33,756 nucleotides of DNA from Methanobacteriota archaeon (lineage in GTDB: Archaea; Thermoplasmatota; Thermoplasmata; RBG-16-68-12). How positions within the stretch are numbered: position 1 is the first letter of the stretch; each line of letters starts with the position of its first letter. Made by a program: the position numbers and the translations under genes. The notes beneath the pieces were generated by a model. The model was not told the DNA's origin. It saw only the letters and a list, made by a program, of their open reading frames with translations, and ran no database searches. The DNA lies in contig VBMG01000121.1 in assembly GCA_005878485.1 (NCBI GenBank), positions 1-33,756 on the forward strand, read 5' to 3'. Positions 1,230-7,548 of the stretch are shown here, piece after piece.

Positions 1230-3371
1230 TTAGCGAGAAGGCGTCGGTTCGACGTGCTTCACGACAAGGAGATACACGTTGTCGTACGTGCCGTCCTGGT
1301 CCACGTCCTCGGCGTGGTACTCGACGATGACCCACTCATGGGTGTCTGGGACGCCGTCCTGGTTCGGATCCGTCATGCGCTCTGCGCGGAACGAGAGGTC
1401 GACCTTCTCGAAGACGCCGTTCGAGTCCGCATCGGTCCACGTCGCGTCGAGGCGCAGGTACGCGGTCTCCTCCGGCACGCCGTTCTGGTCCTCGTCGAGG
1501 ACCTCGGAGCCGCGGGCGGTGACCGTCACGAGCTCCGGGTGGCCATCGTCGTTCGCGTCCGTCGCCTGCGCGTACAGGACGAAGGCAGCCGTGTACTCCG
1601 GCACGCCATCGTGGTTCGCGTCCCGCACCGCGCTGGCGCGGATCGTGATGTTCGTCGACTCAAACGCGCCGTTCGAGTTCGCATCGACCGCGAGGACATC
1701 GATCGTCACGCCGCGGGTCTCGTCGATCAAGCCGTCGGAGTTGAAGTCCTTCTGCTCCGTCGCAACGAGGTGCAGCTCGACGCGGTCCGGGTGATCATCC
1801 TCGATCGTGTTCAGGACGACGCCATCGACGGTCGCATAGGAGTGGTCCTCCGGGAAGCCGTCGTCGTTGCGGTCGACCGCGGCCTCAGCACGAATCGTGA
1901 GGATGGCCTTCTCGAAGATCCCGTTCGAATTCGCGTCAGTCGCCTCGAGCGATCCATCGATACTCGCCCGGTACTCCGCGTTGCCGTCCTGGTTCATATC
2001 CCGAACGACCGCGCCGGTCAGGTTGATCGGCGCGAGCTCCGGGTGTCCATCGTCGTTCGCGTCCGTGGCGAGCGCCGTGATTTCGAGGGCCTTGCGGACC
2101 TCCGAGATGCCGTCTGAGTTCAGGTCCGCGCGGGCGTACAGATAGATCCGGCCGTCGATTTGCTCCGGGAATCCGTTCGAGTTCGCGTCCGCGTAGTTGT
2201 AGGAGAGCGCCAAGCCGCGAGCGAGCTCGTCGTGGCCGTCGAGGTTCCAGTCGACCGCTTCATATGCGGTCACGTTGACCGTCGCGCTCTCGTTGTGCCG
2301 GTCATGGTTCGCGTCGCGGATGCTCGCCGTGAGGTCGAGGGCGGCGCGGTACTCCGCGCTTCTGTCGTCTCCGACGTCATACGTCTGGTACACGTGCACC
2401 TCCAGGTCGGCCGAGTTCGGCACGCCGGAACTCGTGTCATCGACCATGCAGATCTCCGCACGAACCGTCCGCACGAATTCCGCATTGCCCGACTCGTTGC
2501 GGTCGAAGCGCTGTTCGCCCGCGAACGTCGCCATGAGGGATTCCGGCTTCTGGTCCTCGTCCGCGTCTTTCAGGCTCAGGGTCCAGACGCCTTCCGCGGT
2601 GTACTCGTGTACGCCGTTCTCGTTCGGATCGACAAAGGCCTCGACGCCTTGCCGGCCTTCGAGGGCATTGAACTTCCCGTTCGAGTCGTTGTCCCACACC
2701 TGGAAGTCCCGGGCGATCGTCACGCCGGCCTCGGCCTTGCCGTTCCGGTCCTGATCGACCGTGCAGGTGCCGAGCTGGCGCACGTGGACGTACTCGGGAT
2801 GGCCATCGTGGTTCGCGTCCGTCGCGGTGACCTCTTGTCTCCAGGTGCATCCGCTCTCATTCGAGTCGGGACCAACAAAGTGCATGATGTCAGGGGCGCC
2901 TCGGACTTGGTCTGCGTCACGAGGCAGCACGCCCAAGCCGAAGGAATCCAGCGATGCGTTCGCGAGATCGTCGCGGGTCCCGTTCAGTTCCCGCAGCGCG
3001 GGCACATCCGTGCCGACGGGGTCCGGGTTCCGCTCGGATTCGCTCGCCGGGGCCACCGACGAATTCGCGGGGGCGTCCGACGGTCCCGTCGACGCGACCT
3101 CGGCGGCGGGGGGAGCCGGGGTGGGCCCGGGTGCGGAGGAAGCGGACAGGACCGCGCGGCCCTGACTCGCATCGTCCGCGCTCAGCGCGGCGAGGGTTGC
3201 GCCGCTATTCGAGGGCGCGTAGCCCAGGAGGCGCAGGTACGTTCCGTCGCGCGCAAGCCCGCCGCCCAGATTCGAGAGGACGACGGTACTCACCGCGACC
3301 ATTCCGAGTGCGATCGCCACCACGACGAAGAGGGCGCGTGGCGGGCGTTTCGAGACGCAGTACGCTTGCAT
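1230..3371 (-). CDS. Secreted or surface-anchored protein with about 24 calcium-loop repeats
   Basis: 713 residues. Residues 13-33 form one hydrophobic helix preceded by basic residues (KRPPR), a signal anchor or signal peptide. Residues 70-130 are a Pro/Ala/Ser/Thr-rich stalk. From about residue 184 to 705 the chain repeats a unit of 21-22 residues: an Asp/Asn-rich loop of the form D-x-N-x-D/N-G-x-x-E (DANHDGHPEY, DANSNGFPEQ, DMNQDGNAEY) followed by about 10 residues alternating polar and hydrophobic, as in a beta strand. The loops resemble EF-hand, dockerin and thrombospondin type-3 calcium sites, so calcium binding is likely; the overall fold is not recognised. At least nine N-x-S/T sequons suggest N-glycosylation. 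The start ATG 3371 has an AAAGGTGG Shine-Dalgarno sequence and a TTAATAAG box 44 nt upstream. It is divergent from the histidine kinase. Its role (surface layer, adhesion or binding of a substrate) is unknown. Confidence 0.85.
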   Translation of the reverse strand: MQAYCVSKRPPRALFVVVAIALGMVAVSTVVLSNLGGGLARDGTYLRLLGYAPSNSGATLAALSADDASQGRAVLSASSAPGPTPAPPAAEVASTGPSDAPANSSVAPASESERNPDPVGTDVPALRELNGTRDDLANASLDSFGLGVLPRDADQVRGAPDIMHFVGPDSNESGCTWRQEVTATDANHDGHPEYVHVRQLGTCTVDQDRNGKAEAGVTIARDFQVWDNDSNGKFNALEGRQGVEAFVDPNENGVHEYTAEGVWTLSLKDADEDQKPESLMATFAGEQRFDRNESGNAEFVRTVRAEICMVDDTSSGVPNSADLEVHVYQTYDVGDDRSAEYRAALDLTASIRDANHDRHNESATVNVTAYEAVDWNLDGHDELARGLALSYNYADANSNGFPEQIDGRIYLYARADLNSDGISEVRKALEITALATDANDDGHPELAPINLTGAVVRDMNQDGNAEYRASIDGSLEATDANSNGIFEKAILTIRAEAAVDRNDDGFPEDHSYATVDGVVLNTIEDDHPDRVELHLVATEQKDFNSDGLIDETRGVTIDVLAVDANSNGAFESTNITIRASAVRDANHDGVPEYTAAFVLYAQATDANDDGHPELVTVTARGSEVLDEDQNGVPEETAYLRLDATWTDADSNGVFEKVDLSFRAERMTDPNQDGVPDTHEWVIVEYHAEDVDQDGTYDNVYLLVVKHVEPTPSR
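1257..2822 (-). repeat. Tandem 21-22-codon repeats encoding D-x-N-x-D-G loops
   Basis: About 24 units in tandem within the 1230-3371 gene, period near 65 nt. The best-conserved DNA segment encodes DANxDG. Units are diverged at the DNA level, with only short stretches shared, so the array is old and not a recent slippage product. A few units have degenerate loops (DVGDDRSAEY, IEDDHPDRVE) that may not bind metal. Confidence 0.85.
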
Positions 3372-3410
3372 CGGGATCCACCTTTGCAGTGCGTACCCGG
3401 GTCCGAGGGC

Positions 3411-3449
3411 TTATTAAGACCCGGAAGAGTCTTCCCGATGGTTTTAAGA
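3411..3449. promoter_or_regulatory. Divergent promoter region with GGAAGA-G-TCTTCC palindrome
   Basis: Three elements lie side by side: TTAATAAG on the minus strand (about 3411-3419), centred 44 nt before the calcium-repeat gene; a perfect 13-bp inverted repeat GGAAGAGTCTTCC at 3423-3435; and a GGTTTTAAGAG box on the plus strand (about 3439-3449) facing the histidine kinase. The palindrome sits between the two boxes, where a regulator could affect both genes (inference). Confidence 0.45.
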
Positions 3450-3653
3450 GTGCGAGCCTGCCGGCCCGGCTCGGATCAGTTGCAAGGGTGATTCTCAGCT
3501 GATACGCAACCACGAGGGGTGCGAGGTTGGCGGCGCGAATTGGAACCGCCGAGAGAAGGCTTAAAGTCGGCGAGGCCCCTCGGAGACCGGACCGAGGAAG
3601 GCCCTCCGAACGGAGCGTCTCGGTCCGTCTCCAAGCCGAATGAGAGGCTGTCT

Positions 3654-5432
3654 GTGAGCACGCCCGCAGCGAGCACGGATCGGACCCGTCCATTGACGCC
3701 AGCACAGAGAGGGAGTGCCGGGCCGCCGCGCCGACGCCGTACTCGAAGGGTCGCCGCGACAGCCGTCGCCCTATGGGTCATCGTCAGCGGACTTTCCGTC
3801 CTCTTCGCGATCATCGCTGTTCTGATCGCGCTCCAGGCAACCCGGCTCACCCTCATCCAGTGGCTTACCGCCATCGCGTTCCTCGCCCCGATCGGGGCCG
3901 CGATCGTTGCGATCTTCTGGTACAGCCAGCGCCTCGGCGGTGCCACACGCGAACTCGAGGAGGCGGCGGGATCGAAGGCGCGTCTTGCAGCCATCGTCGA
4001 GAGTTCCCAGGAAGCGATCATCGGCATGACTGAGGACGCCCGAATCACGGACTGGAATGCCGGCGCCGAGCGCATGTACGGGTTCACCGCGGCGGAGGCG
4101 GTTGGCAAGCCGTTCTCAATCCTCGTCCCCACGGAGCGGTTCGGGGAGCTTGCCGGCAACCTTGAACGTCTCGGTCGGGGGGAATCGATTGAACGCTTCG
4201 AGACCGCCGGCGTGCGGAAGGACGGACGGATCATCGCTGCGTCCGTCGCGATCGCGCCGATCCGAGACTCCACCGGACGCATCGTCGGAGCTTCGTCAAT
4301 CGGGCACGACATCACGGAGGGGAAGCGGGCCCTGGAATCCCTCGCGGTTTCGGAGGCAAAATTCCGCGGACTCTTCGAATCCGCGGCCGACGGCATCTTC
4401 GTCGTCGGGCGACATGGATCAATCCTCGATGTCAATCCCGCCGGGGAGGCGCTGCTCGGTCGGGACCGCTCCCAGCTGATTGGAAGCCGGATCGAAGATC
4501 TGATCTCCGCGGCGACGCCGTCCTCGGGTGGCGGCTTTGTGGTGGCCCTGACGCAGGGCCGCCTTGGTGCCAACGTGTTCGAGGGGACCGCCGCGTCTCC
4601 GGACGGGCGCGAGCTCCGCGTTCAGCTGTCCGCGCAATCCGCCCACCTCATGGGCGAGGCCCCGCAGGTCGTGATCATCGCTCGGAACGTGACGGAGCAA
4701 AGCGAGATGCAGCGCAAGCTTCTCGAGAGCGAACGCGCCGCGTCGATGGGACGACTCGCGTCGTTCGTCGCCCACGAGATCAACACGCCGCTTACGAACA
4801 TCTCGCTCCTCGCGTCGAGCATCGGTCGTCGGAGCTCGGATCCCGAAGTCCAAACGCGCCTGAAGAAAATCAGCGCGCAGGGGAAGATTGCGGCCGGCAT
4901 CACCGCCGAACTCCTGAAATTCGCTCGGCCACGGTCGACGAACCTCGTCGAGACGGATTTGCGCGACGTCGTGCAAGCGGCCGCCGATCAGGCCGGCGTC
5001 TTCCGGAAACCCGGGGTAGAGTTGCGCCTCGATCTCGGGGACGACCCGCTCGTGCTCCGCATCGACCCGGTTCGGATGAACGAGGTGTTCGTGAACCTCC
5101 TGAAAAACGCGTTCGAGGCGACCAACAACGGGGAAGTGGGCGTCCGAACCGAGACGACGGACGATGCCTTCGTGCTCACGGTCTCCGATACGGGGTCCGG
5201 AATCCCGTCCGAGGTTCGGAGGCGGCTCTTCGAGCCCTTTGTATCGACGAAAGGCAAGGGGGAAGGGACCGGCTTAGGCCTCGCGCTGAGCAAGAGTTTC
5301 GTCATCGGCCATGGTGGCGACATTTCCGTTTCCACCGAGGTCGGGAGGGGATCGAGCTTCACCGTCCGGCTCCCCCGAGGCGCGCCGACGTCTCCGTCGG
5401 ATCTTTCGTCGACTCGGGCGGGAACGCATTAA
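3654..5432 (+). CDS. Membrane-bound PAS-PAS sensor histidine kinase
   Basis: Predicted signal sensor that autophosphorylates on histidine. With the GTG start at 3654 (GAGAGG just upstream; TTAAAG box near 3558-3566) it has 592 residues. An upstream in-frame ATG at 3519 would add 45 residues without hydrophobic or conserved character and is less likely. Order: Arg-rich start; two TM helices at about 33-59 and 67-89 with almost no external loop; PAS 1 at about 108-228; PAS 2 at about 236-350; HisKA with phospho-acceptor H374 in 'FVAHEINTPLTN'; HATPase with N-box near 476, G1 'DTGSGIP' near 512 and G2 'GEGTGLGLALS' near 540. The tiny external loop suggests that sensing is through the cytoplasmic PAS domains. 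No response regulator is next to it, so it is an orphan kinase; the gene after it encodes a winged-helix protein. The architecture is bacterial in style, as in many archaeal kinases. Confidence 0.9.
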   Translation: MSTPAASTDRTRPLTPAQRGSAGPPRRRRTRRVAATAVALWVIVSGLSVLFAIIAVLIALQATRLTLIQWLTAIAFLAPIGAAIVAIFWYSQRLGGATRELEEAAGSKARLAAIVESSQEAIIGMTEDARITDWNAGAERMYGFTAAEAVGKPFSILVPTERFGELAGNLERLGRGESIERFETAGVRKDGRIIAASVAIAPIRDSTGRIVGASSIGHDITEGKRALESLAVSEAKFRGLFESAADGIFVVGRHGSILDVNPAGEALLGRDRSQLIGSRIEDLISAATPSSGGGFVVALTQGRLGANVFEGTAASPDGRELRVQLSAQSAHLMGEAPQVVIIARNVTEQSEMQRKLLESERAASMGRLASFVAHEINTPLTNISLLASSIGRRSSDPEVQTRLKKISAQGKIAAGITAELLKFARPRSTNLVETDLRDVVQAAADQAGVFRKPGVELRLDLGDDPLVLRIDPVRMNEVFVNLLKNAFEATNNGEVGVRTETTDDAFVLTVSDTGSGIPSEVRRRLFEPFVSTKGKGEGTGLGLALSKSFVIGHGGDISVSTEVGRGSSFTVRLPRGAPTSPSDLSSTRAGTH

Positions 5433-5463: not shown

Positions 5464-5847
5464 ATGCCGTCGCGGCCGTACAAGGACCTCGTGATCTACG
5501 GTTGCTTCGTGCTAAACCGTTTGGTCGCGGGCATGGGGATCGAACTATACCAAGACGGCCTCGAATCGAAACTAGATCGCCTCCTGCCGGGCCAGCCCGG
5601 CATGTCGAAGGAAGAAGTGAAACGGGAGATCAAGTCGAACCATTTCATGACGGACCGCGTCATCGAGGCGTTGGAGAAGGACGGCCACGTGACCGTCGAG
5701 GTGGTCGAGGGCCATTACCGGATCCGCATTACGCGCGAAGGATTGCTCCACATCCGGCGCTACAACGAATTCTATCGGAAAATCTACCAGGAGCAGATCC
5801 GCGACCACTACCGATTCACGAAAGCCCCGTTCTGGCTTCGCGAATGA
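5464..5847 (+). CDS. Winged-helix DNA-binding protein, unknown regulon
   Basis: 127 residues, no membrane segment. Residues about 46-100 read as a winged helix: helices over 'SKEEVKREIKSNHFMTDRV' and 'IEALEKDGHVTVEV', then a beta wing 'GHYRIRITREGLLHIRRY'. The C-terminal helix rich in Tyr, Arg and Lys could dimerise. The start ATG is fixed by the upstream TTAAATAT box. It follows the histidine kinase by 31 nt on the same strand but has its own promoter; no receiver domain is present, so it is not a classical response regulator. I cannot assign a known family such as PadR or MarR with confidence. Confidence 0.65.
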   Translation: MPSRPYKDLVIYGCFVLNRLVAGMGIELYQDGLESKLDRLLPGQPGMSKEEVKREIKSNHFMTDRVIEALEKDGHVTVEVVEGHYRIRITREGLLHIRRYNEFYRKIYQEQIRDHYRFTKAPFWLRE

Positions 5848-6609: not shown

Positions 6610-7548
6610 TCAGCTTGGAGAAGGCCGCCCAGTCAGGCCGATCGTGGGCTCGACGACGATCGGGATGAAGTCGTACGTGCCGTCGTCCCGCTCGATCCCG
6701 AGTTCGAGCGAGCATGCGAACGTCGCGCCGCGGATTCGCACCCGAGCCGACTCCTTCGTCAGGAAGTCGTAAACGTCCGGCGTGACGCTCTCGTTTCCCT
6801 TGGACCTCCACAAGACGAGGATCCGGGCGGGCGGGATGCGGGTCGCGCTCGAGACGTCTTCGACCGCGGCTTTCAACGACTGCAGGTCTCCGAGGGTGGG
6901 TGCGCGGTCGAACGCTTTCACGAACACCCCGAAGCCCGCGGCTCCGACATTGAGGAAGCGCCAGAGGGTCGAAGGCCGCTGACGCACGTACGCGTCGAAC
7001 GAGTACGTGAGCCCGCTCTTCCCCGTGAGCAGTGCGGGCGTCGCGACCGCGCCGGGGATCGACATGACGCCGCGGACGTCGTTGCTCGTGTTCCCCAGAT
7101 ACGTGAGGATTCGCTGGACGGCGTCTTTCCCTTCCGGCACGTAGACGATGGGGTCGGCCTGTCGCACCCGCTGGATCACCCGGTGCCGCAAGGCGAAGTA
7201 GTCGAAGAACGACCGCAAGTCCCGCATGAGCTCGAGGATGGAGAAGCCGAGGATGAACAGGGCCACGAGGACCGCCCCCAGGAAGAGGAACGGGCCCATC
7301 GAGAGCGCTTGGAAGCCGCCGAACACGATGGCGAGGGCAAGCAGGATGAGCCGCGCGGTCGACGTCTTCGCGAGTCGCACTCCGAGAAGGAAGATCAATA
7401 TCGGGAGGAACAGGAGGAGGGTGAGGCCGGCTCCTCCGCCGGGGAACGACACGATCAGGATGAGGAAGAAGTCGAGGACGAGCCAGAGCGACACGAACCA
7501 GCGGACGTACCGGAGCGTCTTGCGGATCTTCGGCGTCTCCCGGTCCAC
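6610..7548 (-). CDS. Four-TM membrane protein with large cytosolic domain, unknown function
   Basis: 312 residues. Four hydrophobic helices fill about residues 15-115 (FVSLWLVLDFFLILIVSFP, LTLLLFLPILIFLLGV, LILLALAIVFGGFQAL, FLFLGAVLVALFILGF), followed by a soluble domain of about 190 residues with no motif I know. The GTG start at 7548 has GGAG close upstream. The TTTATTAT box at 7621-7629, which serves the tRNA on the other strand, could also be read as ATAATAAAG for this gene, giving a leader of about 50 nt. A longer overlapping frame at 5816-7591 is a shadow: its product is almost only Arg, Pro, Asp and Gly. Confidence 0.7.
   Translation of the reverse strand: MDRETPKIRKTLRYVRWFVSLWLVLDFFLILIVSFPGGGAGLTLLLFLPILIFLLGVRLAKTSTARLILLALAIVFGGFQALSMGPFLFLGAVLVALFILGFSILELMRDLRSFFDYFALRHRVIQRVRQADPIVYVPEGKDAVQRILTYLGNTSNDVRGVMSIPGAVATPALLTGKSGLTYSFDAYVRQRPSTLWRFLNVGAAGFGVFVKAFDRAPTLGDLQSLKAAVEDVSSATRIPPARILVLWRSKGNESVTPDVYDFLTKESARVRIRGATFACSLELGIERDDGTYDFIPIVVEPTIGLTGRPSPS

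Follow-up and report, generated by a model that had tools for sequence, protein, structure and literature searches.

A 25-unit array of 21-residue calcium-type loop repeats in an archaeal protein, predicted to form a wide antiparallel beta meander outside the cytoplasmic membrane

RHS/YD repeats are units of about 21 residues, each a strand plus a turn, that together form one long sheet. OspA of Borrelia contains a one-layer antiparallel hairpin sheet with few strands and no calcium loops. Thrombospondin type 3 repeats form a calcium-wrapped chain without long strands, and propellers made of calcium blades have a period of about 60 residues. The calcium loop Dx[DN]xDG had been counted in 16 structural contexts by 2011, archaeal cases being rare (PMC3123361). 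In the calcium-blade form of this site, an additional acidic ligand lies two residues past the motif (PMC3123361).

Here we analyze a repeat protein encoded in a contig of a Thermoplasmata archaeon; the window, i.e., the whole stretch of DNA analyzed, is 33,756 nucleotides long. An earlier note on this DNA had identified the open reading frame with the correct coordinates, and had described about 24 repeats of 21-22 residues. The repeats are indeed there, but they number 25, and their spacing is always 21 and never 22. That is, they form a single unbroken register, without any insertion or deletion. Each unit consists of a 9-residue loop, D1-x-[N/D]3-x-[D/N/S]5-G6-x-x-[E/D]9, followed by 12 residues predicted as a beta strand. 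The strict motif D.[ND].[DNS][GR] occurs 22 times, versus 0.33 expected; when the same residues were shuffled 1000 times, it never occurred more than 4 times. The gene is present as a single copy in its own genome. Its differences from a 79%-identical ortholog are distributed over the three codon positions as 107/69/238; thus, the stretch is coding and selection on the repeat protein is purifying. Across the same DNA, the large plus-strand frames are shadows of this GC-rich gene. Longest-ORF gene calls, which pick such shadow frames in GC-rich DNA, were left unused.

Table 1. Features of the repeat-protein gene and its surroundings (positions in the window)
Feature	Position	Strand	Basis or remark
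3' end of ribosomal protein S3Ae gene	1-300	plus	found close to the repeat gene in several related genomes too
PIN-domain gene (Pfam E 7e-10) and short same-strand upstream ORF (742-1059)	327-1059	minus	
Whole ORF of the repeat protein, 713 aa plus stop	1230..3371	minus	ORF translation; codon-position bias
25 tandem 21-residue units, residues 185-709, superperiods 42 and 84	1245..2819	minus	motif, register, profile
Units 12-15 and surroundings, site of the 84-residue module loss in family f2	1812..2063	minus	ortholog comparison
Cys203, in the strand of the first unit	2763..2765	minus	ortholog alignment
Leading strand, residues 173-184, conserved Cys173 at its start	2820..2855	minus	ortholog alignment; AF2 strand 175-183 (low-confidence model)
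Low-complexity Pro/Ala/Ser/Thr/Asp stalk, residues 35-172	2856..3269	minus	gapped and variable across orthologs
N-terminal hydrophobic helix, residues 13-34, after K8/R9	3270..3335	minus	sequence; AF2 helix 17-33 (low-confidence model)
PAS-PAS histidine kinase, on the upstream side of the repeat gene and in divergent orientation	3519-5432	plus	
Small winged-helix-like protein gene	5464..5847	plus	SelB-wing_2 E=0.005, below cutoff
Protein of 312 aa without Pfam match, containing several hydrophobic segments	6610..7548	minus	

The signal anchor and the Pro/Ala/Ser/Thr stalk that the earlier note had recognized are both present, and they support a tethered extracytoplasmic protein. Judging from its sequence, the N-terminal helix is a signal anchor, or possibly a cleaved signal. 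Cys173 and Cys203 are probably joined across strands by a disulfide at the N-terminal edge; in the ortholog alignment, a second cysteine is present in every family, shifted two residues earlier in genus g2. As to the many N-glycosylation sequons claimed before, 10 are found versus 5.2 expected (p = 0.02), an excess for which 'many' is a generous word, as only 6 are within the repeat domain. Taken together, the hydrophobic helix, the variable stalk, the cysteine pair found in all families and the sequons lead us to a probable location of the domain on the outer side of the cytoplasmic membrane. The domain carries a net charge of about -71 (pI 4.2), and with acidic charge this dense it is hard to imagine how it could fold without cations.

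The chemistry of the loops is that of a known ion site. Ligands at positions 1, 3, 5 and 9, together with the carbonyl at position 7, fit the calcium-blade form of the Dx[DN]xDG site, and position 9 is Asp or Glu in nearly all units, at the spacing of the calcium-blade acidic ligand. The complete ligand set with Gly6 is found in 19 of the 25 units; arrays of 21-25 units contain 13-19 full sets, and roughly one quarter of units lack one. Across the orthologs in the host order, D1 is conserved at 93-99%, G6 at 85-96% and E9 at 75-86%. Each loop is predicted to hold one calcium ion, and loop chemistry makes stiffening by calcium plausible.

The units are also organized at longer range. The autocorrelation of the sequence peaks at 84 > 42 > 126 > 63 > 21 > 105, all well above the remaining lags; i.e., units pair (42), and pairs pair again (84). 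The alternating beta-like linkers of the earlier note are borne out, in that even-numbered units have their hydrophobic strand positions at 11, 13 and 15 and odd-numbered ones at 14, 16, 18 and 20, and in the order's orthologs the strand residues of neighboring units are strongly unlike each other. Compared with shuffles that preserve parity, units four apart are more similar to each other in the window protein (p = 0.0015). The same holds for L014 (p = 0.0005), L018 (p < 0.0005) and L022 (p = 0.001), which are orthologs from other families, and for L050 (p = 0.0005), a distant relative; L037 and L015 showed no clear excess over such shuffles. Even-numbered loops alternate between DANDDGHPE and DANSNGxFE types. 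We take this alternation to mean that adjacent bulky loops, one per two strands on an edge, lean opposite ways; an ancient duplication of an 84-residue module is an alternative.

The structure of consecutive repeats was predicted from related sequences. Alignment A1 comprises three non-overlapping stretches of eight or nine units from nine proteins, all taken from the window and the related loci retrieved, and aligned together in repeat-shifted fashion to increase depth; the nine-unit AlphaFold2 model covers the last nine of the 25 units, with 24 related rows. In keeping with the proposal of the earlier note, this segment is predicted to be ordered (pLDDT 84.3, pTM 0.76), with nine strands of 12-14 residues and no helix. 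The model points to a wide meander of antiparallel beta strands, which may take the form of a ribbon, a folded-back sandwich or a closed barrel. The order of the strands in space was inferred, with strand adjacency read off DSSP, Foldseek and hydrophobicity. In both loop classes, the correlation of hydrophobicity between neighboring strands is highest with position p opposite 31-p (r = 0.21 and 0.23). This register is that of an antiparallel hairpin centered on the loop, and it was obtained independently of the AlphaFold2 model. For even-numbered loops, register 29 is almost equal to 31 (r 0.197 versus 0.208). A case for an open ribbon based on zero shear was dropped, as neither DSSP nor hydrophobicity fixes the even-loop register. 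The full-length single-sequence model was poor (pLDDT 41), too poor for use, and a fold search with it is meaningless.

When the nine-unit model was searched against the PDB with Foldseek, nothing was found at E <= 0.001, the best match having an E of 0.1. Outer-membrane up-and-down barrels, large pore sheets and the broad sheet of coproporphyrinogen oxidase make up most of the weak matches, with no prominent propeller among the PDB matches listed. A viral fold library contained no match for the repeat model.

The earlier note had held that these calcium-type loops recur with a period unfamiliar from EF-hands, dockerins or thrombospondin type 3 repeats, and no Pfam or NCBIfam model exceeds its cutoff for the window protein; EF-hand, dockerin and thrombospondin type 3 models are among those without a match. 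FG-GAP and FG-GAP_3 score 10.1 and 8.5 bits against cutoffs of 26.9 and 22.1, or 14.6 and 13.0 bits as repeat domain, and the best FG-GAP_3 E-value among ten members is 1.1e-4. These weak matches are due to the loops. A profile search of solved structures returned only lanmodulins, over two loops (last two units, E 3.5e-5). The tandem 21-residue loop-strand arrangement was not found in the family libraries or literature searched.

Each of the closest systems shares part of this design. The calcium blades of FG-GAP/integrin-type propellers (PF01839, PF13517) likewise place an acidic ligand two residues after Dx[DN]xDG, between strands and in an extracellular setting, whereas here the period is 21, there is a loop at every turn, and a meander is predicted instead of blades. 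EF-hands and lanmodulins share the loop start Dx[DN]xDG, but the EF-hand has a 12-residue loop with Glu or Asp at position 12 and helices on either side, versus a 9-residue loop with its acid at position 9 and predicted strands here. Dockerins and thrombospondin type 3 proteins are also surface proteins with tandem Asp/Asn-rich calcium loops; however, the former have two loop-helix units, as opposed to 25 units and no helix in our model, and unlike the latter, whose pattern is DxDxDGxxDxxD, the repeats described here lack an acid at position 12, where they have a strand. RHS/YD repeats resemble the array in their 21-residue strand-plus-turn unit and single long sheet, yet the turns here are D-x-N-x-D-G-x-x-E rather than the YD motif, and there is no RHS Pfam match, with neither a cage nor a toxin in evidence. 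OspA is similar in its hairpin-built one-layer sheet, and dissimilar in its few strands without calcium loops.

Orthologs were found in 26 of the 37 genomes of the host order, and in 8 of the 11 of best quality, with one gene per genome, split contigs or split matches aside. Those relatives that carry a name are Euryarchaeota assembled from soil and subsurface metagenomes. Within the order, orthologs correspond unit by unit at offset 0, the next best offset usually being +/-4 units, and the array has no insertion or deletion relative to a 54%-identical ortholog. Families f1, f3, f4 and f5 have about 25 units (for L013 and L018, automatic counting gave 23-24 because of boundary effects), and one f3 loop has an 11-residue insert. 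Family f2 has 21 units; offsets 0 and 4 are its best two, and thus one four-unit (84-residue) module is missing. In one ortholog from the same genus as the window protein (L012, ORF 1456-3567), the calcium loops have largely decayed, leaving 15 recognizable units and 12 loose motifs, while the length and the strands are retained. This protein constitutes a natural test of the calcium requirement.

In the wider phylum, matches were found in 28 of 390 sampled genomes. Array length ranges from 7 to over 40 units in these distant relatives, with unbroken runs of 25 (L050), 27 (L051), 11 (L054 and L060) and 7 (L058 and L059); L052 has 21 units plus degraded ones. At the N-terminus of some of them there is a hydrophobic segment or a lipobox-like cysteine. 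The 27-unit array of L051 is rich in Ala, Gly and Trp, and its positions 18 and 20 are hydrophobic in both parities, unlike in the window family. No relatives were found among viral contigs and plasmids. From these sequences, the repeat family seems to be common to one archaeal phylum, often at equal array length.

On balance, we favor the view that the protein is a membrane-tethered, extracytoplasmic, calcium-stiffened antiparallel beta meander with a structural or adhesive function at the surface. Each Dx[DN]xDGxx[DE] loop would bind one calcium ion and lead into a single long strand. Each strand would be antiparallel to the next, so that the loops become the turns along both edges of a single, very wide up-and-down sheet of 25 unit strands plus the leading strand. 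Calcium bound in the turns would neutralize the acidic charge and lock each turn, and the sheet would thus fold or stiffen after export. The amphipathic strands would leave one face for burial, by curling, folding back or self-association. The cysteine pair would staple the N-terminal edge, joining the leading strand to the strand of the first unit, and the helix and stalk would keep the domain off the membrane. The most likely role would be that of a surface scaffold, or of an adhesive or ligand-binding platform.

Other readings of the same array are considerably less probable. The likeliest among them, though still unlikely, is an extendable adhesin rod whose length varies through gain and loss of repeats: anchor, stalk and tandem repeats would suit it, as would the wide range of unit numbers among the distant relatives, but within the order there are 25 or 21 units in unit-by-unit correspondence. 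The rod-like shape that the earlier note thought possible is not supported by these data: a near-fixed unit number is unlike typical extendable adhesin rods, and the model suggests a wide meander. Somewhat more doubtful is an FG-GAP/integrin-like propeller with six 84-residue, four-strand blades, calcium-blade loops and one closing strand. The 84-residue superperiod, the fact that family f2 lost precisely 84 residues, the 4n+1 units within the order, the shared loop chemistry and the weak FG-GAP_3 matches all speak for it. However, the basic period is 21, no FG/GAP signature was seen in the repeat protein, and its FG-GAP scores are below cutoff; the same 9-residue loop is found at all 25 turns, even though one turn in four would have to bridge two blades; the strands are uniformly long; and the PDB matches listed include no propeller.

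We regard it as improbable that the protein is mainly a buffer or sink for calcium or another metal at the cell surface, with the strands as spacers. Up to 25 sites per chain, the strongly negative charge, and lanmodulins as the sole solved-structure sequence matches of the profile, via loop similarity, would be in keeping with such a function, but the strand residues are amphipathic and kept in register between families, the gene is single copy, and no metal-related neighbor was recognized. Least probable of all is a closed, giant, porin-like up-and-down antiparallel barrel of about 26 strands, lying in or against an envelope layer with calcium at both rims. Its strand number is even, as an antiparallel barrel requires, the strands are amphipathic with about four hydrophobic residues on one face, the array length is near-fixed, and outer-membrane barrels dominate the weak Foldseek matches. 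Those scores are nevertheless below significance, calcium turns at both ends and an inner-membrane-type N-terminal helix are unlike porins, and some relatives have 27 units or strands of mixed polarity (L051). To our knowledge, archaea of the host's type are not thought to make giant beta-barrels. Moreover, most archaea lack an outer membrane (PMC12448462). One continuous, calcium-edged beta meander, which would give the Dx[DN]xDG loop a new structural context, is much more likely than such a barrel.

If the meander is correct, calcium would form almost every turn of a sheet, an additional context for this loop, in an array fixed in length across one archaeal order and with related forms across its phylum. 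An unnamed repeat family would gain a testable model, and the protein would be a candidate surface component of uncultured soil archaea. The Thermoplasmatales, within the same phylum, have no S-layer (PMC12448462). The array may also be a possible scaffold for designed single-chain sheets.

In families f1, f3 and f5 (three of five), the genes for the winged-helix-like and 312-aa proteins lie side by side, at most a few kilobases from the repeat gene; in the window, the PAS histidine kinase is located between this pair and the repeat gene. A partnership with the pair was considered and set aside, as linkage in three of five families is too weak to infer one. The PIN-domain gene and its short upstream frame are arranged like a VapBC toxin-antitoxin pair, and relatives of both adjoin the repeat gene in L031.
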